Below, one piece after another: positions 1,804 to 21,146 of a stretch of 21,335 nt of DNA; position 1 is the first letter of the stretch; each line of letters begins with the position of its first letter. This stretch comes from a virus, in IMG/VR virus record IMGVR_UViG_3300030688_000133, positions 1 to 21,335 of that record; one strand, 5' to 3'. The notes beneath the pieces are model-generated. The model worked only from the letters and a program-made list of their open reading frames with translations, was not told the DNA's origin and did no database searches. The translations under genes were made by a program, and so were the position numbers.

Positions 1804-1880
1804 CCCCCAATACTGGGGGAAACGGGAGCCGATAAAGAGCTAAGGCCACTTCTCCAATTTGGGGAGGTGGCCTTTGCTTT
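1804..1880 (+). terminator. Double hairpin with terminator-like end between decoration and capsid genes
   Basis: The first hairpin is CCCCCA-ATAC-TGGGGG (1804-1819). After GATAAAGAGCT comes a second: GGCCACTTCTCC (1844-1855), loop AATTT, GGGGAGGTGGCC (1861-1872), 12 pairs with two G-T wobbles, followed by TTTGCTTT. It looks like a weak or partial terminator or an mRNA 3'-end stabiliser that could set relative output of decoration and capsid proteins. The AAAGAGCT linker recurs at 17832-17839 and 21138-21145, so this is probably a member of the repeat family found elsewhere in the window. Confidence 0.55.
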
Positions 1881-1924
1881 GGGTGATTTATGTTAACCGG
1901 GGATCCGGTTAGAAAGGGCTTGAA

Positions 1925-2986
1925 ATGCCTGACGAATATCCGTTGTTTAAGACGCGGACCATGCTCGCGGCGCTTGAACTGCGCACTGCTCCGCGGACGT
2001 TTGTGAAGGATACGTTCTTCCAGCGGGCGAGCCCGGTCTATACCGAGCGCGTGGACGTCGATATCTACACGTCTCAGCGGCGTGTGGCTGTTTATGTCGA
2101 CTCGACTGCCGAGGGAAACGTGATGAGCCGGGAAGGCTATACCACGTTCTCGTATAAGGTTCCTTATATCAAGGAGAAGATGGTAATCGAGCCGACCGAC
2201 CTTGAAAACAGGACGTACGGCGAGACGATCTACCAGGCGGAGTCTCCACAGCAGCGCGCCCTTCGGCAGCTCGCCATTGACATGGGCGTTCTCGACGATG
2301 CGATCACGCGTGCCGAGGAGCTGCAGGCAGTGCAGGCGCTCTTCCAGGGCAAGATACAGCTCAAAAACGGCGACTGGCTCATTTTCCCTGAGATGGCCAC
2401 TCACTTGATCACGGACCTGGAATTCGAGTGGACCGATACCGAAAACTCGGATCCGCTGGCCGATCTGGGCGTTTGGCGGCGCATGATCGTACGGGATGGG
2501 CGCATCGCTCCGGACGTCGTGATGATGGGCTCCGATGCGATGACGACGTTCCTGAATCACCCGAAAATATCGGGCAATCAGGCGGCGTTCTCCCAGGTCA
2601 AAATAAATCGCGGTATGATCGATCCTCAGATGCTCGCCGACGGCGTCATCTACTGGGGCTTCATCGCGGAGATCGGGTGCGACATCTACTCTTACGACGA
2701 GTGGTATGTTCCGCCGACTGCGCCGGCGAACTCGGAGGCGGTTCCGATGGTCCCGCTCAACCAGATCCTTATGGGGGCTTCGCGCGCTCGACGGGACATC
2801 ATCTACGCGCCGATCAAGGATATGCGATCGCTGATCCCTGTGGCGCGTTTCCCCAAGACCTGGATTACTCAGGATCCTTCTGCGCAGTGGCTTATGCTGC
2901 AGTCGGCGCCGCTGCTGATTCCTACCCAGGTTAACGCGACGGTTTCGGCTACGGTTTGCGCGCTGTCTAACGAGCAGCTGGGATAA
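1925..2986 (+). CDS. Major capsid protein, lambda gpE family
   Basis: 353 residues, close to lambda gpE (341). The N-terminal half (LFKTRTMLAALELRTAPRTF, then RVDVDIYTSQRRVAVYVDS) and the central part (VIEPTDLENRTYGETIYQ, then QLAIDMGVLDDAITRAEELQA) fit the Phage_cap_E family, which forms the icosahedral shell. The C-terminal half has the typical VMMGSDAMTTFLNHPKI stretch and the IGCDIYSYDEWYV stretch. The ATG at 1925 has AGAAAGGG six bases upstream. It follows protease and decoration genes in lambda order and is flanked on both sides by strong hairpins, which fits high and separately tuned expression. No N-terminal pro-domain is evident. Family call is secure. Confidence 0.9.
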   Translation: MPDEYPLFKTRTMLAALELRTAPRTFVKDTFFQRASPVYTERVDVDIYTSQRRVAVYVDSTAEGNVMSREGYTTFSYKVPYIKEKMVIEPTDLENRTYGETIYQAESPQQRALRQLAIDMGVLDDAITRAEELQAVQALFQGKIQLKNGDWLIFPEMATHLITDLEFEWTDTENSDPLADLGVWRRMIVRDGRIAPDVVMMGSDAMTTFLNHPKISGNQAAFSQVKINRGMIDPQMLADGVIYWGFIAEIGCDIYSYDEWYVPPTAPANSEAVPMVPLNQILMGASRARRDIIYAPIKDMRSLIPVARFPKTWITQDPSAQWLMLQSAPLLIPTQVNATVSATVCALSNEQLG

Positions 2987-3047
2987 GGGGCATTGCCCCT
3001 TTGGTAAGGGCCGTTCTGGCGTTGAGCCGGGACGGTTCTTTTCACGT
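2985..3047 (+). terminator. Two hairpins after the major capsid gene, ending in a T-rich tract and CACGTG
   Basis: The first hairpin, AAGGGGC-ATT-GCCCCTT (2985-3001), begins within the capsid stop codon. The second is CCGTTCTGGC (3011-3020), loop GTTGA, GCCGGGACGG (3026-3035), ten pairs including two G-T, followed by TTCTTTTC. This is a good candidate intrinsic terminator or 3' stabiliser. The tail TTTTCACGTG is repeated after a similar hairpin at 17869-17878. Confidence 0.65.
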
Positions 3048-3087
3048 GTAATGTTCGTCGCTGTGGCGGCGAGAAGGAATATGGGAC

Positions 3088-3369
3088 ATGGCGAAATATT
3101 ATGTGAATCCTGAGAAGTGCATTTCCATCAAGGGGAAGGCGCACAAGGCGGGATCTCTGGTCGAAATCGACGATAGTCAGGTTAAGCGATTGCTTGCCCG
3201 GAAGGTGATTAGCGACCCGGCTAAGCCGCTTCTTCCGACTCCGCAACAGGAGAAGGTGGCCGCGTTCAAGGCCAAGCCTCCGGTTAAAGTGGATGGATCG
3301 CGGGAGGATGGGCGGGCAGACGGGGCGCTATCGGATCCGGATGACGCGGTCAAGGGCCTTGTAGGTTAA
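3088..3369 (+). CDS. Small phage protein in the connector region, function unknown
   Basis: 93 residues, lysine-rich at first (KYYVNPEKCISIKGKAHKAG) and acidic near the end. The N-terminal half has the pattern of short Mu gp35-like phage proteins: a short strand, a GKAHKAGSLVEIDDSQ turn, then a helix VKRLLARKVI. It sits where head-completion genes are expected, between capsid and FII-like joining protein. The start at 3088 fits AAGGA nine bases upstream; an ATG at 3081 lies too close to that site and is in another frame. It ends four bases before the next start, so the two are probably co-translated. No catalytic motif is visible. Confidence 0.65.
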   Translation: MAKYYVNPEKCISIKGKAHKAGSLVEIDDSQVKRLLARKVISDPAKPLLPTPQQEKVAAFKAKPPVKVDGSREDGRADGALSDPDDAVKGLVG

Positions 3370-3373
3370 CCCG

Positions 3374-3727
3374 ATGCTTACTTTTGCTCAGGCTGAGGCG
3401 ATGGATGCAGCGGCGATTTATGGTGCGGAGTTTTCCGAGCCGGTTGTCTTCTGGGATGGGGAGAATTCGATCTCTGTTAATGGGATCGTGGATTTGACCC
3501 GCCAAGAAGTGGACTTGGATACCGGCGCCGCGGTGACGAATACGAAGCCGCGGGTTTCGTTGTGGGCGCCGCTGGTTCCATGGCCGTTGAAGTCTGACGC
3601 TGGGCAGTTCGTTGTTATTCGTGGGCTTCGGTACACGATTCGCAAGGTCGATGCGCAGGGTGACCTTGATGTGTCTGGGACTGCTGAGGGGTCTGTTGTT
3701 GTGGAGCTTAACAGGGCAAAGTCATGA
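3374..3727 (+). CDS. Head-tail joining protein, lambda gpFII-like
   Basis: 117 residues, the same length as lambda FII. Predicted mostly beta, with a central stretch resembling the FII plan: a strand before VDLTRQEVD, then PRVSLWAPLVPWPLKSDAGQ, then a late FVVIRGLRYTIRKVDAQGD (in FII, a GDTLTI-FWVDRV pattern). FII-like proteins complete the portal and provide the docking surface for the tail. Position between capsid and tail terminator agrees. The stop overlaps the next ATG (ATGA), which suggests translational coupling. No clear Shine-Dalgarno is seen before 3374. The call rests on length, position and pattern rather than strong identity. Confidence 0.6.
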   Translation: MLTFAQAEAMDAAAIYGAEFSEPVVFWDGENSISVNGIVDLTRQEVDLDTGAAVTNTKPRVSLWAPLVPWPLKSDAGQFVVIRGLRYTIRKVDAQGDLDVSGTAEGSVVVELNRAKS

Positions 3728-4275
3728 AATACCCAGTGCATTATCGCGTTGAGATCATGGAGAAGGCTCAGGAGATCTTGAAGCGCCAGGTTCATGGGCG
3801 GCCGGCTACGATTGCTCAGGATCGGGTTTATCGGCAGCGGTATTCACCGTTGGGTGATGACCCCGGGAAGACGGCGGCTTATTTGCCAGCTGTGATTATT
3901 TCGACGTTGCGGGAGGATACCGCGGCGATCGATTACACGCAGGAGCGGCGGACTATCGACCTGGTCATTGAGTGCTATGTGACGGATTTTAGCGACCTTG
4001 AAAATCCGTTAGATGTGCTGACCGAGCAGATTGAGACGATGCTCTATCGGGATCAGACGTTGGAGCGGACTGTGGAATGGATCCGCAACAAGTCCAGCGA
4101 GTGGATCTACGATAAGGACAGCGAATCGGAGATCGAGGGTTGTAGGGTGACCTACGAGGTGAAGTACATCAAGGATTCTACTTCTACCCTGCCGCTGGAT
4201 GATTTTGACGAGGTTGACATGACGACGGAGATTGGCAGCGACACGAGGTCGCAGATTATCGAGGTGACGCAGTGA
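3724..4275 (+). CDS. Probable tail terminator / tail completion protein
   Basis: 183 residues. The pattern is an N-terminal helix (VEIMEKAQEILKRQV), a proline-rich strand section ending LPAVIISTLREDT, a strand RRTIDLVIECYVTD, a helix PLDVLTEQIETMLY and a strand VTYEVKYI. This follows the lambda gpU / Mu gp37-type terminators that cap the tail tube. It sits just before the DUF2635 and sheath genes, the Mu gp37 position. ATGA overlap with the upstream gene and GTGA overlap with the downstream gene show tight coupling. The C-terminal 25 residues are acidic (DDFDEVDMTTEIGSD). Assigned by fold pattern and position, not by a diagnostic motif. Confidence 0.6.
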   Translation: MKYPVHYRVEIMEKAQEILKRQVHGRPATIAQDRVYRQRYSPLGDDPGKTAAYLPAVIISTLREDTAAIDYTQERRTIDLVIECYVTDFSDLENPLDVLTEQIETMLYRDQTLERTVEWIRNKSSEWIYDKDSESEIEGCRVTYEVKYIKDSTSTLPLDDFDEVDMTTEIGSDTRSQIIEVTQ

Positions 4276-4589
4276 TCATTGTTGTTAAGCCGCGGCCTGG
4301 GATTATTTTGCATAATCCGGGCAACTTTATGCGGCTGATTGATGCCGAAGGGTCGCCTGTTGTGCTTAGCGGCTACTGGCAGCGTCGCATTAATGATGGG
4401 GATGCGATTGTTGTTCCGGAAACCTCTCTACCGGCAAGCGAGCCCATTCTCTCCGAAACGGAGAGACCTGGAGCTCCGGACCTATCTGCCCCACAGGCGG
4501 CGCCCGTGGCCCAGGCTGTGGCCAGCGGTGGAACTCCGGCTGCAGTTGCGCCGATCGCGGCGGTTGATGCGCCAAATGGAGGGGCGTAA
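4272..4589 (+). CDS. DUF2635-family protein (Mu gp38 position) with a repeat-derived C-terminal extension
   Basis: The first 50 or so residues (VVKPRPGIILHNPGN, then GYWQRRINDGDAIVV) match the small DUF2635 family found just upstream of sheath genes in Mu-like phages; usual length is about 50-70 residues. Start is GTG overlapping the upstream TGA. The protein continues to 105 residues. Its extension begins with ETSLPASEPILSETERPGAP, which is the translated copy of the intergenic paired-hairpin repeat at 4421-4476, followed by an Ala/Pro-rich tail. The repeat thus seems to have entered the gene and added a low-complexity tail without breaking the frame. Function of the family is unknown; a role in tail assembly is inferred from position. 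Confidence 0.75.
   Translation: MIIVVKPRPGIILHNPGNFMRLIDAEGSPVVLSGYWQRRINDGDAIVVPETSLPASEPILSETERPGAPDLSAPQAAPVAQAVASGGTPAAVAPIAAVDAPNGGA
4421..4476 (+). repeat. Paired-hairpin repeat, copy inside the DUF2635 reading frame
   Basis: It begins AACCTCTCTACC and ends GAGACCTGGAGCTC, nearly the same as the intergenic copies at 6343 and 15664. The second hairpin is intact: TCTCTCCG (4448-4455), loop AAA, CGGAGAGA (4459-4466). The first hairpin (ACCGG CAAG CGAGC) has lost pairing, as might follow from coding constraint. Similarity to the 6343 copy runs on into a shared TCCGGA. Confidence 0.85.
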
Positions 4590-4591
4590 CC

Positions 4592-6331
4592 TTGCCTATT
4601 GATTTTCAGACTATTCCTACTGCCGATCGCGTGCCGTTCACTTTTGTGGAGTGGAATAACACGAATGCGCTGCCGCCTCAGGTGCAGCAGTTCCAGGCGT
4701 GGATGATTGGGCAGAGCGCTGCGGGGTCGGCGGGAGTGTTAAATACTCCTACTCTGGTCTCTAGCCTGGCGCAGGCGCAGAATAGCTACGGCCCTGGTTC
4801 GATGCTGGCTCAGATGTGTCGTGTGTGGTTTCAGAACAACACGTCGACTCCGTTGTGGATTACGGCACTCGCGGATAACGAGGCCGGAACGAAGTCCACG
4901 GCAACATTGACCATCCCTTCTGTGGCGATCACGGGAGCGACTAACGCTACTCCGATCGTTGTGACGGCCGCAGGGCACGGATTGACGACTGGGCAGAAGG
5001 TTGTTGTCGCATCGGTGGGCGGCAATACGAACGCGAATGGCACGAACTACGTTTCTGTGCTTTCTGCGTCGACGTTTGCTCTTTACTCCGATGCCGGCTT
5101 GACGACTGCGATTGCTGGGAATGCGGCTTATACGGCAGCGACGGGCACCGTTACGGGCTGCGCACTGGCGTCGGGGACGCTGGCTTTCTATATTGGCGGA
5201 CGGCAGTATGTTGCCGGCATTGTTGCGGGGATGGCGCCGAGCCAGACGGCCACGGCGCTGGCGGGAGCCATTAACGCCGATACGACTTGCTGCGTTACGG
5301 CCGTTGCGGCCGGCTCCGTGGTGACGTTGACGGTTAATTGGGCAGGCGTCGCCAATATGGGGCCTGGCTCTACGTACGATCTCGACTTGCGGTTTAACTA
5401 TCTCTCTGGAGACGCTTACCCGGCCGGGGTTACGTTTGTTATTGCTCAGACGGCCGCAGGGACGGGGAATCCAAATATCTCGTCGGCTATTACAGCGGTT
5501 GGGGACACCCAATACAATGTCGTGGTCAACCCTTATACCGATGCGCTCAATCTTCCCCTTCTGGTTGCCGAACTCAATCGCAGGGGTGGCCCAACCCTGC
5601 AAGCGTACGGAGTTGCTGTCTCCGCGCTTGCGGGCACCATGGGCAGCGCTGCGACCTTCGGCGCTACGCAGAACGCCTTGTTCGTTACGGTAACGCCGGC
5701 GAACTCGATGCCGTCGCCTTCGTGGGAATATGCAGCCGGGATTGCTGCTGTTGTGGCCTTCTACGGAAATCAGGATCCTGCGGCGCCGTTCCAGACGTTG
5801 CCCATCGCTGGGATCTATCCACCGGCGCCGGCCGATCGGTTCACCATGTCCGAGCAGAATACTCTGCTCTACACGGGGATGTCCACATTCGCGGTTTCGG
5901 CGTCGGGAGTGGTCAGTATACAAAGACTGATTACGACATATCAGACGAACCAGGCCGGAGCTCCGGACGCGAGCTACTTGGATGTGCCGACCATCTTCAC
6001 GCTCAGTCGATTGACGTACGATGTGCGCACGATGATTGCGACGAAGTATCCGAGGTCCAAGCTTGCGAGCGACGGCATCACTTATTCGGTGGGACAAAAT
6101 GTTGTCACCCCGAAGACGATCACGGCCGAGCTCGTTGCGCTTGCCCAGGGATGGGCGAGCGATGCGATCATTCAGGATGTGCCGGCGTTCGTTTCGGGGC
6201 TGATCGTCGAGAGGAACTCGACTAACCCGAATCGACTGGACGTGTTGATGCCTCCGAACCTCATGAACCAGTTTATGACGGCGGCGATACAGATTCAGTT
6301 TGTGCTGCTGGAGGCGACCGCGGCAGGCTAA
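4592..6331 (+). CDS. Contractile tail sheath protein (Mu gpL-like) with inserted module
   Basis: 579 residues; Mu-type sheaths are about 500. The TTG start (LPIDFQTIPTADRVPFTFVE) matches the usual N-terminus of the family, and no ATG fits. Typical parts are PGSMLAQMCRVWFQNN, VVVNPYTDALNLPLLVAEL, the IYPPAPADRFTMSEQN loop and the C-terminal PNLMNQFMTAAIQIQFVLLE. The protein polymerises around the tube and contracts to drive it through the envelope. Residues about 111-190, between KSTATLTI and ASGTLAFYIGG, form an extra unit: TPIVVTAAGHGLTTGQKVVV, then a TFALYSDAGLTTA stretch. Such HGLxxGxxV units occur in other phage structural proteins, often annotated as FCCH-like. Here it interrupts a sheath domain and probably sits on the outer surface. 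A repeat follows 11 bases after the stop. Confidence 0.9.
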   Translation: MPIDFQTIPTADRVPFTFVEWNNTNALPPQVQQFQAWMIGQSAAGSAGVLNTPTLVSSLAQAQNSYGPGSMLAQMCRVWFQNNTSTPLWITALADNEAGTKSTATLTIPSVAITGATNATPIVVTAAGHGLTTGQKVVVASVGGNTNANGTNYVSVLSASTFALYSDAGLTTAIAGNAAYTAATGTVTGCALASGTLAFYIGGRQYVAGIVAGMAPSQTATALAGAINADTTCCVTAVAAGSVVTLTVNWAGVANMGPGSTYDLDLRFNYLSGDAYPAGVTFVIAQTAAGTGNPNISSAITAVGDTQYNVVVNPYTDALNLPLLVAELNRRGGPTLQAYGVAVSALAGTMGSAATFGATQNALFVTVTPANSMPSPSWEYAAGIAAVVAFYGNQDPAAPFQTLPIAGIYPPAPADRFTMSEQNTLLYTGMSTFAVSASGVVSIQRLITTYQTNQAGAPDASYLDVPTIFTLSRLTYDVRTMIATKYPRSKLASDGITYSVGQNVVTPKTITAELVALAQGWASDAIIQDVPAFVSGLIVERNSTNPNRLDVLMPPNLMNQFMTAAIQIQFVLLEATAAG

Positions 6332-6342
6332 CCCCTCTCAGG

Positions 6343-6396
6343 AACCTCTCTACCCGCAAGTGGGTCCCTTCTCTCCGGTGCGGAGAGACCAGGAGA
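6343..6396 (+). repeat. Paired-hairpin repeat between sheath and tube genes
   Basis: Hairpin 1 is ACCCG (6352-6356), CAAG, TGGGT (6361-6365), keeping a G-T pair where other copies have G-C. Hairpin 2 is TCTCTCCG (6370-6377), loop GTG instead of AAA, CGGAGAGA (6381-6388). AGGAGA follows. It begins 11 bases after the sheath stop. The rest of the gap to 6448 carries the tube ribosome site AAGGAG (6436-6441). A 3' stabiliser or processing role is inference. Confidence 0.85.
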
Positions 6397-6448
6397 TCCG
6401 GAGCGCTGGCGAGAGGTTTGCGAGTTTTTGACGGGAAGGAGATGACTT

Positions 6449-6829
6449 ATGGCGAATCCTATGGCGAGAGTCGGCGGGATTATTTACGTGAAGGTTGACG
6501 GCCAGCAAATCATGGCTAAAGGGTCATTCACCTATACGCTCGGGGTACCGATCAGGAAATCGGTTGTCGGGTCTGACGGCGTACACGGCTACTCAGAGAT
6601 GCCGACTGCAGGGTATTTGGAGGGCGAAGCCACGGACTCTCTGGGTTTCTCGTTGAGCGACTTCCAGAGCATCACCAATGCTACGGTTACCCTCGAATTG
6701 GCCAATGGGAAGGTCATTGCGTACAATAACGCCGTTTTTACTGGCGATGGGACTGCGCAGACGGAGGAAGGCAATTTCAAGGTTCGCTTTGATTCGCCTA
6801 ATGTAACAGAAATTGGAGTGACGTCATGA
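6449..6829 (+). CDS. Tail tube protein (Mu gpM-like)
   Basis: 126 residues, close to the usual 115-120. The order GGIIYVKVDGQQIMAKGSFT, then GSDGVHGYSEMPTAGYLEGE, then VTLELANGKVIAYNNAVFTG is that of the Phage_tail_tube family of Mu and related phages. It builds the inner tube inside the sheath, stacked as hexameric rings, and directly follows the sheath gene as expected. The start at 6449 has AAGGAG seven bases upstream; the upstream ATG at 6442 overlaps the end of that ribosome site and is in another frame. The stop overlaps the next gene (ATGA). Confidence 0.88.
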   Translation: MANPMARVGGIIYVKVDGQQIMAKGSFTYTLGVPIRKSVVGSDGVHGYSEMPTAGYLEGEATDSLGFSLSDFQSITNATVTLELANGKVIAYNNAVFTGDGTAQTEEGNFKVRFDSPNVTEIGVTS

Positions 6830-7373: not shown

Positions 7374-7398
7374 CATTGCACGTGAAAAGGTTGGCGCT

Positions 7399-8320: not shown

Positions 8321-8327
8321 GCCGTCA

Positions 8328-8355
8328 ATGATACCATTGGCGGCGCCGAAAACAA
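8328..8355 (-). promoter_or_regulatory. Candidate minus-strand promoter for the 74-aa RHH-like gene
   Basis: On the minus strand TTGTTT (8355-8350) and TATCAT (8333-8328) are 16 bases apart, close to sigma70 consensus. The -10 box ends seven bases before the ATG at 8320, so transcription would start at about the start codon. This would allow expression separate from the virion operon, for example in a prophage. Confidence 0.45.
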
Positions 8356-8358
8356 AAG

Positions 8359-11473: not shown

Positions 11474-11818
11474 ATGGACGCTCCTGTTTCTGTATGTGGC
11501 GACATTGCTCTTGTCCAGGGTGCGGATTATTATGCTGCCGATGGCCTGGCGCTGCTTTGGACGGATGCGACGTGGCCTGACCTGGTTGGGGCTACTGTGA
11601 CGTTGAAGTTCAAGAGCTCGCGGTCTAATGAGGTTTCTGTTTCGTTTGGGTGCGTTGTTGTGGACGCATTGCACGTGAAATTGGAGCTGTCTGCGGCTCA
11701 GACGGCTACGATCCCATACAGCCGATCCGGGATCCCGGATAGTTATGAGCTCTGGGCTGTACTGGCCAGCGAGCACAATGTGCGGCTTAAGCAGGGCGTT
11801 GCGTTGGTGGAGAGTTAG
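11474..11818 (+). CDS. Small predicted beta-rich tail protein, unknown
   Basis: 114 residues. Alternating strands (ATVTLKFKSS, VSVSFGCVVV, HVKLELSAAQ) and the ending SYELWAVLASEHNVRLKQGV resemble small Ig-like or baseplate-upper-type phage proteins placed next to hub or fibre genes. No conserved catalytic residues are seen. An in-frame TAG at 11465 rules out an earlier start; TAGGA lies four bases before the ATG. The stop is two bases before the hub gene start, so the two are probably co-translated, and the protein may assemble with the hub's extra N-terminal domains. Confidence 0.65.
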   Translation: MDAPVSVCGDIALVQGADYYAADGLALLWTDATWPDLVGATVTLKFKSSRSNEVSVSFGCVVVDALHVKLELSAAQTATIPYSRSGIPDSYELWAVLASEHNVRLKQGVALVES

Positions 11819-11820
11819 TT

Positions 11821-13293
11821 ATGCTTACCGCTTCCTTTGACGGAACCAATAACGCGGATGTGGCTTGGTTCGGGGGGAGTGAGGCGTCCGTTTTTCCCGC
11901 AGGCTCGTACGCCCTAAAATACTTGCGAGGCTGTTACAACTATTCGCACGGGAACCCTGGCTATTGGATGATCGATTGCGTGCTGACCAACGACAGCACG
12001 GTCTATTCGTTATTTGTTCCGCCGGTGCCTGGGAGTGGACATTTTTTTAATGCTTGGAACGCTAGCGAGGCGGCGATTGAGGCCTACTATGCTGGCTATA
12101 CCTATACGCTTGTACACACGGGCGGCCCGATCGGGATCTATGCGGCGGACGGCGACACTGGCGATAATACCAATGGGGCGGTTTGGACGACCTGGGGGCT
12201 TTTGGGATATACGCCGACGATTGCGGTGGCTAGGGCTGTCCCCCCTTTTGGGGGTGCGGCCGGAGTTATAGTGTCCTGGGCAGCGACGACGGCAGCGACC
12301 TATAACGTCTATCGTTCGACGACTTCTGGCGCAGGGTACGCGCTGATTGGCTCTACGCCCTCGTTGGCGTTTGAGGACTTCTCCGCGGATCCGGCTCAGA
12401 CCTATTATTACGTGGTGCGGGGTGTGCTAGGCGGCGTTGAGTTTGGTAATTCTAACCAGGCGAACATTGTCGGGATCGCGGCGCCGGCGGCCGCTCCTCC
12501 TGCTGGGCCGGGCTCGCCGGCGGAGTCGACGTCGATTCGGCGGCGGCCTACGGGAAATGTTAACCCTGCCGGATCTAGCGTTGTTACGCTGCTCGTTAAT
12601 GGGATCTTGTACTCAGGATGGACATCTGTTCGCGTTACGAGGTCGATGAAGGCGATCGCGGGCTCGTTCGAGTTGGGGCTAACGGATGTGTGGCAGCCAG
12701 GGCAGGCGCCATGGCCGATTGTTAAAGGCCTGGCGTGTACCGTAATGATCGGCCAGGACGTGGTGATCACCGGGCATATCGACGAGGTGACGGCGCTGCT
12801 GGATAGCGGCAACCATACGCTGACGGTTAAAGGACGGGATGACACGGCCGACGTCGTCGATTGTTCCGCGACGAACGTTCCTGGGGAGTGGCGCAATAAG
12901 AAGCTGGAGGCCATTGCGGCGGACATCTGCGCGCCACTTGGCGTCAAAGTGGTGTGCGATGTTGACACGGGTCCGCCGTTGTCGTTGTTTCGGCTGCAGC
13001 CTGGCGAGAAGTGTCAGGATGCGCTTGAGCGGTTGACTAAGGGCGGCGGGGACATGCTGCTATTGACTGGCAACGCGGCCGGGAATGTGGTGATTACGCG
13101 ACCTTCGACGCTGCAGGTTGCTCCTGGGAACGGCGGGGTTACGCTGCAGGAGGGGGTCAATATTAAGAGTATCCAGCACGTGACCAATGGGGAAGAGCAG
13201 TTTTCTCAGTACATCGTGAAGGCTTTTGCGAAGGACGCTAAGGACTCGAGCGCGGCGGATCCGCAGGGCGGCGGGGCGTTGGTTAGGAGCTGA
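11821..13293 (+). CDS. Baseplate hub (Mu gpP-like), N-terminal part, fused to lectin-like and fibronectin-like domains
   Basis: 490 residues. Residues about 253-474 (VTLLVNGILYSGWTSVRVTR, then VVITGHIDEVTALLDSGNH and KGRDDTADVVDCSATNVPG) match the first two thirds of Mu gpP-type hubs, which thread the tube end. The match stops after FSQYIVKAFAKDAKD; the last 15 residues (SSAADPQGGGALVRS) do not look like the family. The missing hub C-terminus is at 14199-14672. Before the hub core are extra domains: 1-135, beta-rich and aromatic (YLRGCYNYSHGNPGYW), possibly carbohydrate-binding; and 137-215, a fibronectin III-like unit (YNVYRSTTSGAGYALIGST, then TYYYVVRGV); then a Pro/Ala linker. Usual gpP is about 380 residues without these. 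Hub call is secure; the sugar-binding idea is inference. Confidence 0.85.
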   Translation: MLTASFDGTNNADVAWFGGSEASVFPAGSYALKYLRGCYNYSHGNPGYWMIDCVLTNDSTVYSLFVPPVPGSGHFFNAWNASEAAIEAYYAGYTYTLVHTGGPIGIYAADGDTGDNTNGAVWTTWGLLGYTPTIAVARAVPPFGGAAGVIVSWAATTAATYNVYRSTTSGAGYALIGSTPSLAFEDFSADPAQTYYYVVRGVLGGVEFGNSNQANIVGIAAPAAAPPAGPGSPAESTSIRRRPTGNVNPAGSSVVTLLVNGILYSGWTSVRVTRSMKAIAGSFELGLTDVWQPGQAPWPIVKGLACTVMIGQDVVITGHIDEVTALLDSGNHTLTVKGRDDTADVVDCSATNVPGEWRNKKLEAIAADICAPLGVKVVCDVDTGPPLSLFRLQPGEKCQDALERLTKGGGDMLLLTGNAAGNVVITRPSTLQVAPGNGGVTLQEGVNIKSIQHVTNGEEQFSQYIVKAFAKDAKDSSAADPQGGGALVRS

Positions 13294-13296
13294 AAG

Positions 13297-13350
13297 AACC
13301 TCTCTACCCGCAAGCGGGTCCCTGTCTCCCCGAAACGGGGAGACAGGGAG
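13297..13350 (+). repeat. Paired-hairpin repeat at the break in the hub gene
   Basis: It starts three bases after the hub TGA. Hairpin 1 is ACCCG (13306-13310), CAAG, CGGGT (13315-13319). Hairpin 2 is the longest of the family: CCTGTCTCCCCG (13321-13332), loop AAA, CGGGGAGACAGG (13336-13347), 12 perfect pairs. Compared with the 15664 copy the stem differs on both sides in matching positions, so pairing is kept. It may also act as a bidirectional terminator between converging transcripts. Confidence 0.85.
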
Positions 13351-13352
13351 TT

Positions 13353-13763
13353 TTAGGAGTCGGACAGTGCGTCCTTCGAGCTTTGAGGCAGGCAGTGTCT
13401 TCGGAATCGCCAGCCAGCGATCTCGTCTAGCAAGAGGCGTTGGTAGTCTTCCGGCCATCGCGCGGCGGCGGCTTCGCATTCGGTTGCTATGATTTCGGGA
13501 TCCGCCTTAGCGCAAACGTAGTCCAGGAGCTGCATGAGGTCGAGAGCGTTGATACTAAATGTAAGACGCATGTATAGCAGGGACCGTATTTGCGCCTTCC
13601 AGTCGGCGGTTGCCCAGTTGCCCCATTCCGCCGCTGATTTGCATTTGAAATCGCGGAGATCGGGGAGAGGATCGGTAGACACAGGCTTGTCGAGATTGTA
13701 TTCAAACGAACCCGACGTTAAGAACTCCTTACCGTTAACCGCGACGAACATCAATTTTCTCAT
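13353..13763 (-). CDS. Unknown protein, second gene of antisense cassette in the hub locus
   Basis: 136 residues, start ATG overlapping the previous gene's stop (TAATG). The first 30 residues look like beta strands (KLMFVAVNGKEFLTSGSFEY), followed by helices (AAEWGNWATADWKAQIRSLL, then LDLMQLLDYVCAKADPEII) and a basic turn GWRFRRHCLP. Two tryptophans lie in a WGNWATADW stretch. No signal peptide or membrane segment is seen. I do not recognise the family. Its 3' end abuts the paired-hairpin repeat at 13297-13350. Its strand and place suggest separate expression from the virion operon, perhaps as a cargo gene, but nothing in it shows a function. Confidence 0.6.
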   Translation of the reverse strand: MRKLMFVAVNGKEFLTSGSFEYNLDKPVSTDPLPDLRDFKCKSAAEWGNWATADWKAQIRSLLYMRLTFSINALDLMQLLDYVCAKADPEIIATECEAAAARWPEDYQRLLLDEIAGWRFRRHCLPQSSKDALSDS

Positions 13764-14137
13764 TACGGCCTGAACCTCTTTTCTAAGTCTTGCGCTTGGG
13801 CCTTTATTGTGAGGCGCATCCGGAGCGTGCCATCTGTCTCACCTTCTGCTCGGCGTGTGCCGAGCGACGCGGCCCAGGCGTCGAGGACCTCTGACCCAAG
13901 CTCGTCGGGAGACATTATTACCGGCGCAGCAGGCAGAGAGCGTTCAATGCGTTCGGCGAGCTTGCTTAGATCGCTGAGGAAGCTCGCCGGAAGCCCTTCA
14001 AAGAACCTTGGGTCATTGATCGCAACTGATGCATGGAGTGCCTTTTTCCGATAAGCTTCCAGGTCTGCCGATGACGTAGGACTGGCTTCTTCGGGCCATT
14101 TCATATCGTTGATTACTGTCATTATGTCTTCGGACAT
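13763..14137 (-). CDS. Unknown protein, first gene of antisense cassette in the hub locus
   Basis: 124 residues from ATG at 14137, chosen because GGGGAGG lies 11 bases upstream; the longer GTG reading from 14218 would run into the hub C-terminal gene and has no such site, though it cannot be excluded. The product is helix-rich and acidic early (MSEDIMTVINDMKWPEEASP), with a hydrophobic patch FFEGLPASFLSDLSKLAERI and a basic end (RLTIKAQAQDLEKRFRP). I do not recognise it. It is followed by the 13353-13763 gene with a one-base overlap, so the two form an operon. The pair occupies most of the DNA separating the two hub parts. Confidence 0.6.
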   Translation of the reverse strand: MSEDIMTVINDMKWPEEASPTSSADLEAYRKKALHASVAINDPRFFEGLPASFLSDLSKLAERIERSLPAAPVIMSPDELGSEVLDAWAASLGTRRAEGETDGTLRMRLTIKAQAQDLEKRFRP

Positions 14138-14198
14138 TATGATCAGGACCTCCCCTAGCCCCTCCACTTCGTAAAGGGGAACTTGGAAAGATTGTACC

Positions 14199-15655: not shown

Positions 15656-15663
15656 CGCCGGTC

Positions 15664-15718
15664 AACCTCTCTACCCGCAAGCGGGTCCCTTCTCTCCGAA
15701 ACGGAGAGACGAGGAGCT
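15664..15718 (+). repeat. Paired-hairpin repeat between spike and gp46-like genes
   Basis: Hairpin 1 is ACCCG (15673-15677), CAAG, CGGGT (15682-15686). Hairpin 2 is TCTCTCCG (15691-15698), loop AAA, CGGAGAGA (15702-15709). The final GAGGAG (15711-15716) also serves as ribosome site for the next gene, 11 bases before its ATG. It starts eight bases after the spike stop. Confidence 0.88.
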
Positions 15719-15727
15719 TAAGAAACG

Positions 15728-16153: not shown

Positions 16154-17199
16154 TGCCTATTTCGCGCCCTACACTTCAGACACTTGTTAACCGGAGTACC
16201 ACGGATATTCAGGGGGCTGCCGGTTTCTCCGTCCCGATCTTGCCGGTATCCGTCCTGAGGGTCCTGGCGAAGCTTTTTGCCGGTGCGGTGCACCTGCTTT
16301 ATGGGTACATCCAGTATTTTTCGCGGCAAATCTTCCCAGATACGGCAGAGTCGGCCTATTTGAGTGAATGGGCTTCCATCTGGGGGATTACGAGGGAAGC
16401 TGCGACATACGCGCAGTGCGTTTTGACTGTGACTGGGGTGAACACTTCCGATATCCCGGCCGGGACGCTTTGGATTAACGCTAACGGGATTGAATACGCT
16501 TCCAATGCCGACGCGACGATCGCAGGCTCTACGGCTGTGGCTGCCACGGCGACGACCTCGGGCAGCGTTGGGACTCCGACTGTTGGCGACACCCCCGTTC
16601 TGGTTAACCCTGTGGCAGGCCTTGACTCGGCGGCGACCGTGGCGTCGGTGACGGCCGGGCAGGACTCGGAGCTAGATCCCGCGTTGTTGACGCGGCTTTT
16701 AGCGCGCATTCAAACGCCTCCGCAGGGCGGCGCGCTCACTGACTATGTGGCCTGGGCGAGGACTATTGCCGGCGTGACTAGGGCTTGGCCATATGGGGGT
16801 ATGTTCGGACCTGGCACGGTGGGTGTAACTTTCGTGATGGATAACACGGAGGGCGGCCCGATTCCGGATGGCGGCACGGTTTACGCCGTGCAAGCCTATA
16901 TAAATACCGTGCGGCCGGTGACGGCGAATGTGACGGTTTTTGCGCCGACCGCGCTTCCTGTGGATTTCACCATTCACCTGGTTACATCTTCGACGCCCGT
17001 GCAGGAGGCGATTGAGGCTGGGCTAGCTGCGTACATTTCCGATGCCGGCACGCCAGGCCAAACGCTGCTTTTAACGCAGATCTCCGCCATCGTGGCAGAG
17101 AATTCGGCCGGGAGCGACTTTGTTTTGAGCGTGCCGGCTGCCAACGTCGTTGTTGGCGTTAGCTATATGGGGACGATGGGGACGGTGACATGGGTTTGA
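16153..17199 (+). CDS. Baseplate J-like wedge protein (Mu gp47-like)
   Basis: 348 residues, normal for Mu gp47. It starts MPISRPTLQTLVNRSTTDI and goes on with LLYGYIQYFSRQIFPDTAES, then LSEWASIWGITREAA, the common N-terminus of this family. The Baseplate_J core is clear in the second half: PQGGALTDYVAWARTIAGVT, RAWPYGGMFGPGTVGVTFVM and the region around VTVFAPTALPVDFTIHL. It forms wedges around the hub and couples receptor signalling to sheath contraction. TAATG coupling upstream and 10-base overlap downstream keep it in the gp46-47-48 block. Confidence 0.9.
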   Translation: MPISRPTLQTLVNRSTTDIQGAAGFSVPILPVSVLRVLAKLFAGAVHLLYGYIQYFSRQIFPDTAESAYLSEWASIWGITREAATYAQCVLTVTGVNTSDIPAGTLWINANGIEYASNADATIAGSTAVAATATTSGSVGTPTVGDTPVLVNPVAGLDSAATVASVTAGQDSELDPALLTRLLARIQTPPQGGALTDYVAWARTIAGVTRAWPYGGMFGPGTVGVTFVMDNTEGGPIPDGGTVYAVQAYINTVRPVTANVTVFAPTALPVDFTIHLVTSSTPVQEAIEAGLAAYISDAGTPGQTLLLTQISAIVAENSAGSDFVLSVPAANVVVGVSYMGTMGTVTWV

Positions 17200-17780
17200 G
17201 TCAAGCGGACTATGCCGCACAGATCGTTCAATTGCTTCCCCGTGGTAAGGCCTGGCAGGGCGAGCTGCTGCAGCAGCTCGTGCAGGCGTTCGCGGCCGAG
17301 TGCGCACGTGTGGATGCTCAGGGCGTTGTGCTGGTTACCGAGGCGTTTCCGCAGACTACGAATCAGTGTTTGCCGGATTGGGAACGCGTTGCCGGGATAC
17401 CATCGGCCGTATGGCCGGCAGTAGTTCCCTCGAGTAACATTTCGCAGCGGCAGAGGAACCTTGTTGCTAAGCTTTCGGCGCAAGGCGGCCAGTCGATCCC
17501 GTATCTTATTTCCGTAGCCACGCTTATGGGCTATACCATTTCGTCGATCACGGATTGCTATTCGCCGTTTACGTGCAAGAGCAATTGCAATGATCTGCTT
17601 TATGGAGAGGCATGGGCTTTTACTTTTACGGTTAATGTGTCCGCGTTGCCTGCAGGGGAGACCGTCGCGTTCGATGGCAGCTTGCCTATGTTGAGGCAGT
17701 ACTCGAATGCTCGGATTGAGGCTGTTATCAATTCGCTGCAGCCGGCGCAGACGGTTAGTTTGTTTACGTATCCTGGGTAG
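17190..17780 (+). CDS. Baseplate protein (Mu gp48-like, DUF2313)
   Basis: 196 residues, standard size. The opening SQADYAAQIVQLLPRGKAWQ and CLPDWERVAGIP with QRQRNLVAKLSAQGGQSIPY are the DUF2313/YmfQ signature. It follows baseplate J in Mu-type phages and helps link fibres to the baseplate. A cysteine cluster at about 122-134 (DCYSPFTCKSNCND) fits the family. The last strands end VSLFTYPG. Start overlaps the end of the J gene by ten bases. A hairpin repeat follows three bases after the stop. Confidence 0.88.
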   Translation: MGLSQADYAAQIVQLLPRGKAWQGELLQQLVQAFAAECARVDAQGVVLVTEAFPQTTNQCLPDWERVAGIPSAVWPAVVPSSNISQRQRNLVAKLSAQGGQSIPYLISVATLMGYTISSITDCYSPFTCKSNCNDLLYGEAWAFTFTVNVSALPAGETVAFDGSLPMLRQYSNARIEAVINSLQPAQTVSLFTYPG

Positions 17781-17783
17781 GGA

Positions 17784-17880
17784 GTCACCCCTCCCGCCCA
17801 AGGGGCGGCGACCTCCCCTGAAGGGGAGATTTAAGAGCTTTGGGCCGCGCTTCGTAGAGTTGCGGTCCTTTTCACGTGGC
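17784..17880 (+). terminator. Paired-hairpin repeat variant plus terminator-like hairpin before the fibre genes
   Basis: Hairpin 1 is CCGCCC (17794-17799) with GGGCGG (17803-17808). Hairpin 2 is CTCCCC (17813-17818), TGAA, GGGGAG (17823-17828), followed by TTAAGAGCT. A third, GGGCCGC (17842-17848) with GCGGTCC (17862-17868), is followed by TTTTCACGTG (17869-17878). The third resembles a terminator and matches the arrangement after the capsid gene. The part at 17812-17839 closely matches 21118-21145. No gene is seen in 17781-17898. Confidence 0.6.
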
Positions 17881-17898
17881 ATGATTGGAGTGTTTTTA

Positions 17899-18609
17899 AT
17901 GCATCGTATTAATACGCCTAGCGCGCTGGTGGCGGCGCCGGCTCTTGTGGGCAGCGGGGCTACTCAGGGTTGGTTTACTGATGGGGACCCGACGATGGGT
18001 GTTCCGCCGACCGGGCTGGACGATACCTGGTTTAACAGCGTGCAGGATGAGATCGCGAATGTGATACTCGGAGCGCCCAGTCCGTCCGCGCTTTCGGTGA
18101 CTGACAATACTCAGTTGCTCGCGGCAATTAAGGCTCTAAGGGGTGGCCCACGGCGGGTGCAGGTTGCTAATGGGGTTTCGGAGGGCGGTTCGCAGATTCC
18201 TGTTAAGGCCTGGTTTACGGGGACGCTTTACCAATACGCGGAGAGCTGCATCGATCCCTCGATCCATCATACTGTTGCAGACATGCAGGAACTGGTTTGG
18301 TGGATGGTTGGGGTGAGTAACCCCACGGCCAATCCGATAACGGTGGCTGCGACGATATGCGCCGTTGATGACGGGGCTAACGTGTTCTGGAATGGGGCTT
18401 CTGTTTGCTCCGTGTATGGAGACATTTACGGGACGCCGGGGACGGCCACGGCGAATATAACGATCGCCGCGGGAGCCTCGAATTTGCTTGAGGTGTTGTT
18501 CTACAATCGCGGGAGCGCGGGCGGCAACGCGGGTTATTTGCTGTTTACGCTTGGGGATCCGTTTCCGGCGGGGCTGCAGCTGTATGATCCTGGGACTGTG
18601 TTTGCCTAA
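17899..18609 (+). CDS. Tail fibre protein, short
   Basis: 236 residues from ATG at 17899, with GGAG nine bases upstream; an earlier in-frame ATG at 17881 has no ribosome site. The N-terminus MHRINTPSALVAAPALVGSG, then GWFTDGDPTMGVPPTGLDDT and WFNSVQDEIANVI is the common attachment motif of Mu/P2-type tail fibres (GDP...T.v...W.N.vQ.Ei). From residue 95 there is a beta sandwich-like domain with many aromatic and Asn residues (ELVWWMVGVSNPTANPITVA, VFWNGASVCSVYGDIYG) that may bind the host surface. It starts a new transcription or translation unit after the hairpins at 17784-17880. Receptor binding is inferred. Confidence 0.75.
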   Translation: MHRINTPSALVAAPALVGSGATQGWFTDGDPTMGVPPTGLDDTWFNSVQDEIANVILGAPSPSALSVTDNTQLLAAIKALRGGPRRVQVANGVSEGGSQIPVKAWFTGTLYQYAESCIDPSIHHTVADMQELVWWMVGVSNPTANPITVAATICAVDDGANVFWNGASVCSVYGDIYGTPGTATANITIAAGASNLLEVLFYNRGSAGGNAGYLLFTLGDPFPAGLQLYDPGTVFA

Positions 18610-18619
18610 GGAGTGACCA

Positions 18620-19084
18620 ATGACGCAGCAAACGATATCGGGGAAGATTATTCGAAGCGGGTCGATCCCGTTGGCTGCTCTGGCCGCGGGCCTGGCTGTT
18701 GTGTCTGTTAACCACGCGGCTAGCCCTTTTGCGGTGGCATCGGCGGTCGCGAGCGTGATTGTTTGCGATACGTCCGGAGGGGCGATTACGGTTGATCTGC
18801 CGGCGGCAACAGGCAGCGGAAACATTCTGTTCGTTTTGAATTCTACTAGCGCGACGGCTACGACGATTACTCCCCATTTGGCGGACACGATTAACGGGCT
18901 GGCGAGTGCAATGGCGAGCTCTATGTTTGGGCTTGTGGAACTGATCGACGTCGCCGCAGGGACCTGGATTATTGGTAGCCAAGAGCCGGTTCCCGGCGCC
19001 GGAATGAGCGTTCTTGACGGGATCGTAACCGACATCGGGGAAGTCGTTGTAGATTCGCTGACCGGGGCCGTTTTGTATGCTTAG
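18620..19084 (+). CDS. Small fibre-associated protein, unknown
   Basis: 154 residues with AAGGAG six bases before the ATG, ten bases after the fibre gene. Composition is Ala/Val/Ser/Thr-rich. The pattern AVASVIVCDTSGGAITVDLP, then GSGNILFVLNSTSATATTIT and ADTINGLASAM is the kind of beta-helix/triple-strand repeat seen in phage fibre and tailspike add-ons that display a surface-exposed tip (VDLP, TIT.....DTI). No enzyme motif is visible. Likely part of the host recognition set with its two neighbours; this is inferred from position and pattern. Confidence 0.6.
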   Translation: MTQQTISGKIIRSGSIPLAALAAGLAVVSVNHAASPFAVASAVASVIVCDTSGGAITVDLPAATGSGNILFVLNSTSATATTITPHLADTINGLASAMASSMFGLVELIDVAAGTWIIGSQEPVPGAGMSVLDGIVTDIGEVVVDSLTGAVLYA

Positions 19085-19126
19085 GCTGCGCGCAGCAATT
19101 AACGCGTCAAGTTTTTAGGAGATACT

Positions 19127-20074
19127 ATGGGCTTTCATAATGCGATAGCAGCCGGCGGTGTGCACGTGGTCGCCAATTGGGTTTATGCCAACAATGCGGA
19201 CATGTTGGCTGCTTCTGGATTCGTAACTGGAGATGTGGGAAAAGTTGCGTGGGAGACGGACAATGACACTCTTTGGATTTTGACGGCGACAACACCTACG
19301 TGGGTAGCGATTGGGGGGCTGACAAACCCAATGACGGCAGTGGGAGATGTAATCATTGGCGGGGCTTCCGGGACCCCTGAGCGGCTGCCTATCGGGACGA
19401 TCGGGAAAGTGCTAACGTCGAATGGTACGACGGCAGGGTGGGCATCGGGCAGCACGGCGGCAGGCCTCTATGCCGGCAATGTTGTGGCGCCACCAGCTCT
19501 GGGGAGTTGGACGTGGCTCAATCAGGGGGGCGCTACGGCGACAAACAATGGCGGCACTTTGCTGATGCTTATCCCAGACAGCTCGACGTCGTTAGACTGG
19601 CGCCTGCTTTATGTTGCTGAGCCAACTCCTCCATACGGCGTTGTCGCGTGCATTTCGAGCATGCAGGGTAACTTTAACTCTCAGACGGCCGGGATCTATT
19701 TTTGCGACACTGGTTCCGGGAATATATCTGGGCTTGAGTTCCTTACGCAGGTTGGTGTGCGCTCCTGGAGCGTACGAAATTTCGCGAGCCCAACATCCGG
19801 CGGATCTATTGTATATCAACAGACCGGAGGCGAGGTGTGGCGAGGCCCAGACACAGCGCCCATGTGGGTACGACTCAGAAACGACGCTACGACGTTATCC
19901 TACGACGTATCCCTGGACGGGAGCAATTGGCGAAACCTGTATAGCCAATTACTAACCGCCTTTGTCACTCCAAACAGTTTAGCTTTTGGTGGACTATGCG
20001 TCACTTCGGGGGCTCTTGCGTTTGAGGATGTTAACCTAATAAGTTGGACGACGACCAACTCGGCAGCTTTCTAG
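19127..20074 (+). CDS. Tail fibre / receptor-binding protein with lectin-like C-terminus
   Basis: 315 residues, AGGAG five bases before the ATG. The first 110 residues use fibre motifs: NWVYANNADMLAASGFVTGD, then KVAWETDNDTLWILT and ERLPIGTIGKVLTSNGTTAG, typical of adaptor regions. Residues 120-315 look like a concanavalin-type jelly roll (GIYFCDTGSGNISGLEF, WVRLRNDATTLSYDVSLDGS, FGGLCVTSGALAFEDVNLIS), which in secreted and phage proteins binds sugars. It is the last gene of the fibre set; its final 39 bases overlap the 3' end of the antisense SGNH hydrolase gene. The lectin-like reading is by pattern; the sugar is unknown. Confidence 0.7.
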   Translation: MGFHNAIAAGGVHVVANWVYANNADMLAASGFVTGDVGKVAWETDNDTLWILTATTPTWVAIGGLTNPMTAVGDVIIGGASGTPERLPIGTIGKVLTSNGTTAGWASGSTAAGLYAGNVVAPPALGSWTWLNQGGATATNNGGTLLMLIPDSSTSLDWRLLYVAEPTPPYGVVACISSMQGNFNSQTAGIYFCDTGSGNISGLEFLTQVGVRSWSVRNFASPTSGGSIVYQQTGGEVWRGPDTAPMWVRLRNDATTLSYDVSLDGSNWRNLYSQLLTAFVTPNSLAFGGLCVTSGALAFEDVNLISWTTTNSAAF

Positions 20075-20821
20075 CGTCGACTCCCAAACGCGAGCGATTT
20101 TGGCATAGCCCGATGCCGCAGGGTGAACGCCCGAGGGTGCATAGTCGAACCGGCGCAGCTTTGCTAGATGGTACATGTCTACGAAATGGATGTGATAACC
20201 TCTGGCATGCCACAGTTCCACCTGTTCGGCAATCGCCGCATTGAGGGGCGTCACGTCGTAGTTATAGAGCGGGATGACCGAGGAAACATACAGGTCGCAC
20301 GATGGGTTTTGTTTATAGATCTCAGTCCAGAGAGTTGCCATGTTGGCCATCGATGTTTCGAGTGGAATGTCGGCGCCAAAATCGTTGGTGCCGATCATGA
20401 TGAGGGCGACGTCCGGATGTATGCCCTGGTCGAAGGTCGGGTACCTGGCGGCGAGGTCCGCGGTCGTGGCGCCTGGGTGGCCTTCGCAGTGCCAATCCCA
20501 GCCTGGACCGTCGCCGGCGATGACGCTGCCGACAGGTCGGTACCCATGGGCGGCCAGCCAGGGATAGATTTGCTTTCGATAGCCCCCGCGGCAGGCGTTT
20601 AGGTTTCGCTCGGCGGAGAGGCTTTCATCGGCGCCGTAAGTGATGGAATCTCCGATCTCTTCGATTGTTGTGCGGTCGCTTGGCGCTGTTGGCTGGAATG
20701 CGAGCGGTGATGATACGGGCGCTATGGCGAGGGCTTGCGGTGTGTGGTTTTCACGTGCAATGGCGAGAGCAAAAATTAACGCCAATGCCCAACCGGTATA
20801 AGCGAGGGCTTTATTTAGCAT
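20036..20821 (-). CDS. SGNH/GDSL-family hydrolase with N-terminal membrane or signal segment
   Basis: 261 residues from ATG at 20821, which overlaps the stop of the RHH gene, so the two are coupled; a longer reading begins inside the RHH gene and is not protein-like. Residues 6-21 are hydrophobic (LAYTGWALALIFALAIA), a signal or anchor. Family blocks are clear: EIGDSITYG with Ser59, GHPG with Gly117, GTND with Asn146, and GVHPAASGY with His233. The usual Asp three residues before His is Ser230 (APSGVHP); Asp226 is the nearest acid. Members cleave acyl or acetyl esters on sugars and lipids. Exported action on cell envelope or surface polysaccharide is inferred. Convergent with the fibre gene, it may be a lysogenic conversion gene or a surface-modifying enzyme. 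Confidence 0.82.
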   Translation of the reverse strand: MLNKALAYTGWALALIFALAIARENHTPQALAIAPVSSPLAFQPTAPSDRTTIEEIGDSITYGADESLSAERNLNACRGGYRKQIYPWLAAHGYRPVGSVIAGDGPGWDWHCEGHPGATTADLAARYPTFDQGIHPDVALIMIGTNDFGADIPLETSMANMATLWTEIYKQNPSCDLYVSSVIPLYNYDVTPLNAAIAEQVELWHARGYHIHFVDMYHLAKLRRFDYAPSGVHPAASGYAKIARVWESTLESCRVGRRPTY

Positions 20822-20987
20822 TTCTGGACTCCTTGATTTTTGCGACGCGATCGGAAAGAAAGAACCGCACGGCCTCTTCCAGCACGGCCGTTGCGGTTTT
20901 GCCTTTTTCGGAGGCCTCGTCCTGGACGGCCTGGTAGGCATCTGGGGTGAGCCTGGCCGAGAGCCAGGTTTTAATTTTTGTGCTCAT
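20811..20987 (-). CDS. Ribbon-helix-helix DNA-binding protein, likely autoregulator
   Basis: 58 residues: MSTKIKTWLSARLTPDAYQA, then VQDEASEKGKTATAVLEEAV and RFFLSDRVAKIKESRNAK. The plan is a short N-terminal strand, a helix and a second helix, with a KGKTATAVLEEAVRFFL segment typical of CopG/Arc-type repressors. Such proteins bind DNA as dimers, often as repressors of their own promoter. It lies upstream of the SGNH gene with overlapping stop and start. Tandem TTGTxACACA repeats lie seven bases before its ATG and cover the probable promoter. No Shine-Dalgarno is obvious, so leaderless translation is possible. Confidence 0.72.
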   Translation of the reverse strand: MSTKIKTWLSARLTPDAYQAVQDEASEKGKTATAVLEEAVRFFLSDRVAKIKESRNAK

Positions 20988-20992
20988 GTATT

Positions 20993-21013
20993 ATTGTAAC
21001 ACATTGTGACACA
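20993..21013 (-). promoter_or_regulatory. Tandem 10-bp operator-like repeats over an extended -10 promoter
   Basis: TTGTAACACA (20994-21003) is followed directly by TTGTGACACA (21004-21013), nine of ten bases alike. On the minus strand the same bases hold TGTTACAAT, an extended -10 (TACAAT at 20998-20993), five bases before the RHH start codon. Two adjacent half-site-like repeats suit two RHH dimers, so this is probably the autoregulated operator. Confidence 0.55.
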
Positions 21014-21110
21014 AATTGCGATATGGAAAATGATTCAAATTCTCTAATATAAATTAGGCGATTCGAATTTACGCATTGGGTTTTACAGGTAACCCATCTC
21101 GCCGGTCAGA
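21014..21110. promoter_or_regulatory. AT-rich divergent intergenic region with small palindromes
   Basis: Between the minus-strand RHH unit and the plus-strand membrane protein the sequence is markedly AT-rich compared with its surroundings. It holds CTAAT-ATAA-ATTAG (21044-21057), ATTCGAAT (21061-21068) and GGGTT-8-AACCC (21078-21095). I see no convincing plus-strand -35/-10 pair. It is a plausible control region for the downstream lysis-type genes. Confidence 0.4.
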
Positions 21111-21146
21111 CCGCGATCCTCCCCTGAAGGGGTGGTATAAGAGCTA
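21111..21146 (+). repeat. Hairpin repeat variant before the membrane protein gene
   Basis: CCCC (21121-21124), loop TGAA, GGGG (21129-21132), flanked by CC and GG with one mismatch, then TATAAGAGCT. The segment 21118-21145 is nearly the same as 17812-17839, so both derive from one element. Here it lies upstream of a start codon rather than after a stop on the same strand. Confidence 0.7.

Follow-up and report, generated by a model that had tools for sequence, protein, structure and literature searches.

A two-hairpin repeat at gene junctions of a Mu-like phage belongs to a family shared by Armatimonadota chromosomes and an unrelated prophage of that phylum

The DNA analyzed here is a stretch of 21,335 nucleotides (nt) of IMG/VR virus record IMGVR_UViG_3300030688_000133 (G000; the whole 21.3-kb stretch is called the window), which represents a Mu-like myophage with nearly all of its genes on the plus strand. 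The window encodes a head protease, a lambda E-type major head protein, sheath, tube, tape measure, and DNA circulation proteins, a split hub of the gpP type (hub1 and hub2), gp45, gp46, gpJ, gp48, and fiber proteins. L005, a fragment of this phage with identical sequence, provides no independent evidence. Dispersed among these genes is a short repeated element consisting of two hairpins. The same family is present in the window phage, in chromosomes of Armatimonadota (here, the phylum of locus L168, which is labelled "uncultured Armatimonadetes"), and in a prophage of this phylum that is unrelated to the window phage. The stems of the family covary, and the phage copies lie in the sense orientation at gene junctions.

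Element copies in the window

Four near-identical copies are located on the plus strand at positions 4421 to 4478, 6343 to 6400, 13297 to 13355, and 15664 to 15721 (nhmmer E values of 2e-19 to 5e-21), exactly where a sequence-only reading of the window had placed them, and they fall in repeat families D1, D3, and D4. They form the sole dispersed hairpin family of such a kind in the window, and dispersed four-copy families are rare among about 240 related loci. The plan common to the four copies is AACCTCTCTACC, hairpin 1, CCCT, hairpin 2, and an AGGAG-like end. Three copies have TCTCTCCG/CGGAGAGA as stem 2, the copy at 13297 has TCTCCCCG/CGGGGAGA within a 14-bp stem, and the loop of hairpin 2 is AAA or GTG, so that both the alternative pairing and the variable loops are as first described. 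Searches were run with a covariance model built from these four copies only (R1) and with a second model (R2), the training set of which includes the copy at 17784 and copies from two Armatimonadota genomes, G058 and G053, making R2 counts partly circular; the E values of both models are rough.

The copy at 6343 lies in the sheath/tube junction, 11 nt past the sheath stop codon (nhmmer E = 7e-20; R1 score, 81.8 bits), and is the only one flanked by a candidate terminal inverted repeat, AACCTCTC...GAGAGGTT. The copy at 13297 begins 3 nt past the hub1 stop codon (84.2 bits; fold z of -5.7) and is convergent with a minus-strand gene at 13353; its extended hairpin 2 is followed by AGTTTT, and it is the only terminator-like copy. 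The copy at 15664 begins 8 nt past the gp45 stop codon (87.8 bits), shows no target-site duplication by eye, and carries an AGGAG shortly 5' of the gp46 ATG (15728) that may be a ribosome-binding site. A fifth, diverged member on the plus strand (17784 to 17839) begins 3 nt past the gp48 stop codon (R1 E = 0.03; 28.2 bits with R2, which was trained on it). It has a distinct hairpin 1 (CGCCC AAG GGGCG) and a hairpin 2 of CTCCCC/GGGGAG, after which comes a terminator-like hairpin at 17842 to 17869.

The copy at 4421 (plus strand; nhmmer E = 2.4e-19; R1 score, 79.8 bits) lies in frame in the 3' part of a DUF2635 gene (4272 to 4589, plus strand). Its sequence is ACCGGCAAGCGAGC, in which three of the five pairs of hairpin 1 are broken and hairpin 2 (4448 to 4466) is perfect. 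The predicted protein has 105 amino acids (aa), whereas those of Bordetella phage PY223 (63 aa) and Citrobacter phage phiNP (about 54 aa) are shorter, and it matches Pfam DUF2635 only at residues 5 to 50; its C-terminal extension is partly derived from the element. Directly 3' of this copy, positions 4479 to 4538 give weak matches (R1 E = 2.6; R2 E = 0.016), and the entire extension may therefore consist of element pieces.

All five members are in the sense orientation, and the four noncoding ones begin 3 to 11 nt past a stop codon; the proposed start just after a stop codon (11, 3, 8, and 3 nt for 6343, 13297, 15664, and 17784, respectively) thus holds for these copies and fails for 4421, which is inside a gene. 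Among the shorter variants proposed earlier, 17784 is a genuine diverged member, whereas the very diverged candidate at 21090 to 21145 (plus strand), in an intergenic region between divergent genes, is doubtful: it contains a 28-nt repeat with 89% identity to 17812 to 17839, is not significant with R1 (E = 5.9), and has no R2 match at an E value of ≤1. Hairpins at 1804 and 2985 had also been assigned to the family, and neither model finds them. The site at 2985 reads as an ordinary terminator, made up of a hairpin, then a terminator-like hairpin and TTCTTTTC, and that at 1804 is another hairpin, located 5' of a strong terminator-like stem (1842 to 1877). Relatives usually have hairpins 5' of the major head gene (z below -2 in six of eight).

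The family in Armatimonadota genomes and in a second phage

The sequence-only reading had proposed running a covariance model of the copies against phage and host genomes, and this search, carried out with R1, found the same family in Armatimonadota genomes, most of which are drafts in which misbinning is possible. Full-length copies were found in G058 (32 matches, up to 46.6 bits) and G053 (up to 40.8 bits), and a further genome, G240, yielded 60 R1 matches; R2 gave 84 matches in G058 and 54 in G053. Examples are AACCTACCTTCCCGCAAGCGGGCACCTTCCTCCCGAAACGGGAGGAGCT and GACCTCTCTACCCCATCGGAATGGGGTCCCCTTCTCTCCGAAACGGAGAGAC in G058 and CCCCCCTCCACCCGCAAGCGGGTCCCCGGCTCTCCCAAAATTGGGAGAGCCGGGGAG in G053. 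As a control, R1 reached at most 31 bits, mostly in 35-nt matches, among 385 genomes of Alphaproteobacteria, and no match was found among 284 genomes of the phylum of L146, which is Myxococcota judging by its label (Myxococcales). Among phages, three DNA patterns had no match in IMG/VR beyond L005, a blastn search with the element in phage and plasmid sequences gave chance matches only, and nhmmer and R1 found no real match over about 275 related phage and prophage loci. The plan of the family (about 50 to 60 nt) comprises a 5' arm, (A/G)ACCTNNCT, a variable hairpin 1, a CCCT linker, hairpin 2, and a short 3' arm that is often GGAG. Hairpin 1 takes the forms CCCG CAAG CGGG, CCCAC TTC GTGGG, CCCGC TTC GCGGG, CCCC TTC GGGG, and longer ones, and hairpin 2 is a stable pyrimidine/purine stem, TCTCTCCG/CGGAGAGA or TCCTCCCG/CGGGAGGA. 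In G053, a complete chromosome in a single 7.6-Mb contig, 9 of the 12 copies of the closest subtype, CCCGCAAGCGGG, begin 12 to 18 nt past a codirectional stop codon.

Selection on structure, which had been claimed from the window copies, is not evident in those four copies alone, as their one double-sided pair change is reached by 123 of 500 shuffles, but it is supported by comparison of more sequences. In a MAFFT alignment of 31 copies from elsewhere (A6), 90.6% of the cells are paired and 37 are double changed, compared with 14.4 ± 3.0 in shuffled alignments (0 of 500 reach the observed count), and covariation is 0.263 versus 0.150. A few rows of A6 are shifted by one column by MAFFT, which makes the count conservative; relatedness among the copies inflates covariation counts, and slid controls, which retain this relatedness, give at most 13 double-changed cells. 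The covariation is clear in both hairpins.

A second phage carrying the element was found in G058, where the best copies are concentrated on contig C8 and on the part of contig C48 that begins at 87 kb and runs to the contig end. These phage regions encode a primase, small and large terminase subunits, an HNH protein, a portal protein, a head morphogenesis protein, and scaffold and major head proteins, and C8 also encodes an endolysin; we infer that C8 continues the C48 prophage. None of the window proteins has a match in this region. R2 finds 18 copies on C48 and 5 on C8, all 23 on the plus strand with the genes. Nearly all lie at gene junctions, mostly 20 to 100 nt past a stop codon, with two inside long plus-strand frames, and four end in GGAG close before a start codon. 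The density is about 0.8 copies per kb, compared with about 0.01 per kb for the 61 other matches (about 5.77 Mb); the resulting enrichment of about 75-fold is an estimate, because only 150 candidates were scored and R2 was partly trained on G058. The dispersed chromosomal copies and the dense, sense-only copies in this phage support the earlier suggestion of an element adapted to phage operons that resembles repetitive extragenic palindromic (REP) sequences or miniature inverted-repeat transposable elements (MITEs). In G058, the two-hairpin core is also contained in a MITE-like repeat of 246 to 263 bp with at least eight similar copies (L299, 791 to 1036), some of them at contig ends.

REP sequences are associated with REP-associated tyrosine transposases (RAYTs), and Y1_Tnp genes occur in all five Armatimonadota genomes tested. 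The element flanked no Y1 gene in the 10 regions examined, a set outside which the 14 Y1 matches of G055 fall, and RAYT-driven mobility is therefore not supported; one of the 10 regions held a copy, 1.8 kb away (G058 C45). On that contig, a Y1 transposase gene (L398, 3798 to 4372) is framed by its own 57-nt inverted repeats, which are unlike the element.

Equivalent junctions in related phages

The window was compared with L172, which is collinear and has a 77% identical gpJ, and with about 240 more distant loci; sheath- and gpJ-based searches yielded L172 as the one close relative. The sheath/tube gap is 117 nt in the window versus a median of 25 nt in 101 relatives, and the gp48/fiber gap is 118 nt versus a median of 7 nt (n = 61) and 9 nt in L172. 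The gp45/gp46 gap is 72 nt, compared with a median of -1 nt (n = 135) and 124 nt in L172, where it holds two unrelated strong hairpins, one with a 13-bp stem. In relatives, the sheath/tube gap is often structured as well, and the closest ones, L173 and L168, have unrelated strong hairpins there. Since relatives mostly lack sequence at the equivalent junctions, the copies behave as insertions into tight junctions. At some of these places other phages have hairpins of their own, which would be expected if a hairpin at such a position were useful.

At hub1/hub2, a gap of 905 nt (13294 to 14198), compared with 8 nt in L172, contains the element and two minus-strand genes without a family match. 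In L172, which has no insert, the frames of hub1 and hub2 are separate and adjacent; the element was accordingly rejected as the cause of the hub break, and the split is older than the insertion. A hairpin-forming CCTCCCCT...AAAGGGG is present at the right border of the insertion (about 14150 to 14180).

The copies had been proposed to mark recombination seams, a view that the comparison with L172 does not bear out. Gene content breaks at the hub1 N terminus, at hub1/hub2, at the gp48 N terminus, and inside the second fiber gene, and only the hub1/hub2 break carries the element, whereas 15664 and 17784 lie where gene content is unchanged. Linkers marking module boundaries are for these reasons a highly improbable explanation, even though 13297 does border the inserted antisense gene pair. 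It had also been noted that copies stand right after genes with added domains. This is correct for sheath, hub1, and gp45, but L172 has the gp45 extension without the element, and added domains and element are therefore not linked. The sheath protein (gene at 4592 to 6331) has an insertion of about 80 aa (residues about 111 to 191) that is not in Mu-like relatives. A domain at the hub1 N terminus (11821 to 12530) recurs before gp48 in L172 (3956 to 4355; 39% identity) and appears to be a domain moving between genes.

Another repeat, TTTTCACGTG, is found at 3039 to 3048, 17869 to 17878, and 20748 to 20757 on the plus strand and at 7379 to 7388 and 11672 to 11681 on the minus strand, usually with ATG or AATG within a few bases 3'. 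The five matches (≤1 mismatch) compare with 0.9 expected, no shuffle reached five, and the repeat is possibly a regulatory palindrome.

Comparison with known elements and interpretation

REP elements, bacterial interspersed mosaic elements (BIMEs), and palindromes tagged with GTAG or CGTC are small, dispersed, extragenic, present in tens of copies per chromosome, and often 3' of genes, with proposed roles in mRNA stability and termination (PMC3733652). Like them, the window element is a dispersed extragenic palindrome in many copies. Unlike them, it has no conserved GTAG/CGTC tag (CTAC stands before hairpin 1, which is the wrong side, and CGTC occurs only in 15664), it has a conserved 5' arm in addition to two hairpins that are unlike each other, the Y1 genes examined are not flanked by it, and it is strongly enriched and sense biased in phage. 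By analogy, the element would function like a REP-type intergenic palindrome, yet one that lacks both the tag and the RAYT association. Rickettsia palindromic elements are short palindromic repeats found in frame inside genes and between genes; the window element also occurs in frame in genes but is mostly intergenic and phage borne. T7-type hairpins processed by RNase III recur between the genes of phage operons, as the element does, and the element differs from them in sequence, in its two-hairpin plan, and in its chromosomal presence. The literature search on Armatimonadetes and palindromic repeats found nothing relevant among the papers covered.

The start-associated and extended start-associated sequences (SAS/ESAS) of cluster K mycobacteriophages are asymmetric, contain inverted repeats, and lie at many phage gene junctions, nearly all in one orientation (PMC3203893). 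The window element is likewise a one-way junction repeat of phage, but whereas SAS/ESAS lie immediately upstream of starts, its association in the window and in G053 is with stop codons, and it has chromosomal copies as well. The Whalefall-1 RNA (RF01762) resembles the element in plan, having two hairpins, one with a CUCUCC/GGAGAG stem and the other with a CUUG/CAAG loop (PMC2864571). Identity with this RNA was rejected, as the match is to the minus strand of 13297 with 21.4 bits against a gathering threshold of 37 (E = 0.16), and none of the other copies searched has a match.

The explanation that we favor, with some reserve, is that the element is a REP/MITE-like repeat whose RNA structure is under selection and which would serve as sense-strand intergenic punctuation in late transcripts. 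Copies would have spread into junctions by duplication or insertion, and sense copies would be retained because the RNA, once folded, acts as punctuation in long late transcripts, stalling 3' exonucleases and/or providing a double-stranded processing site after each gene. mRNA levels would consequently differ between neighboring genes in one operon. For a minority of the copies, the GGAG in the 3' arm may also provide the gene that follows with its ribosome-binding site, and the stem at 13297 may have grown into a terminator between convergent genes. The role of mRNA 3' stabilizer offered by the sequence-only reading would be in keeping with copies that lie in the sense orientation behind stop codons.

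Several observations weigh against this explanation. The copy at 4421 is not under RNA-structure constraint, because its hairpin 1 pairs are broken, and the chromosomal copies of G058 and G240 face both ways relative to neighboring genes, as a neutral repeat would. The element is absent from two Mu-like prophages of Armatimonadota (L353 and L354). R2 also yields a background of mostly single matches near E = 1e-4 in 15 of 294 (5%) Planctomycetota genomes, and given this background only multicopy or high-scoring cases were used. The exact 22-base core is absent from the 84,980 species genomes searched, and the direct host of the window phage is therefore unsampled.

The main rival, which is possible though less probable, is a neutral or selfish host repeat of the REP/MITE type, a palindrome that spreads as DNA and hitchhikes in phages, where only harmless sense insertions behind stop codons survive. 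The bidirectional chromosomal copies, the inclusion of the core in the longer G058 repeat, and the in-frame copies at 4421 and in the G058 phage would all fit such a repeat, and prophage L144 bears a dispersed two-part palindromic repeat of its own host genome (at 914, 7455, and 8798; 11 genome matches). It is harder to reconcile with the enrichment and the uniform orientation in the G058 phage, set against mixed orientation on chromosomes, with the stop-codon spacing in G053, with stem changes that preserve pairing, and with a window that contains no transposase. Ordinary intrinsic terminators or attenuators are an improbable account of the family. Termination fits 13297, between convergent genes, and only that copy; a terminator-like hairpin does come after 17784, and many relatives have terminator-like hairpins before the major head gene, but no T run follows hairpin 2 in 4421, 6343, 15664, or the G058 phage copies, the window has terminator-like sites at the chance level (22 versus 21.9), and two linked hairpins with a conserved 5' arm are unnecessary for termination. 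Translation-start elements of the cluster K type, in which the 3' arm would supply or hide a ribosome-binding site, seem quite improbable too. They would suit 15664 and the four G058 phage copies that end in GGAG, but only one of the five window copies and about 4 of the 23 G058 phage copies stand immediately upstream of a start codon, 6343, 13297, and 17784 are at least 48 nt from the next start codon, and the G053 copies are tied to stop codons.

The occurrence of the element suggests that the host of the window phage is a member of the Armatimonadota, and the family has the appearance of a shared mRNA punctuation mark that is absent from the libraries searched. A broader proposal, which we regard as unlikely but worth stating, is a punctuation system of Armatimonadota and their phages, in which the element stands behind genes, is recruited in bulk and in the sense orientation by unrelated phages, and cuts or caps each cistron of their long late transcripts through a host factor that also serves chromosomal genes, so that mRNA levels are set gene by gene within an operon. 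Dispersed palindromes are usually viewed as chromosomal debris, and here one family is common to the chromosomes and phages of a little-studied phylum. This raises the questions of whether phages recruit intergenic repeats of their hosts as expression signals and what factor reads them, and the element may provide a marker for assigning metagenomic phages to Armatimonadota.

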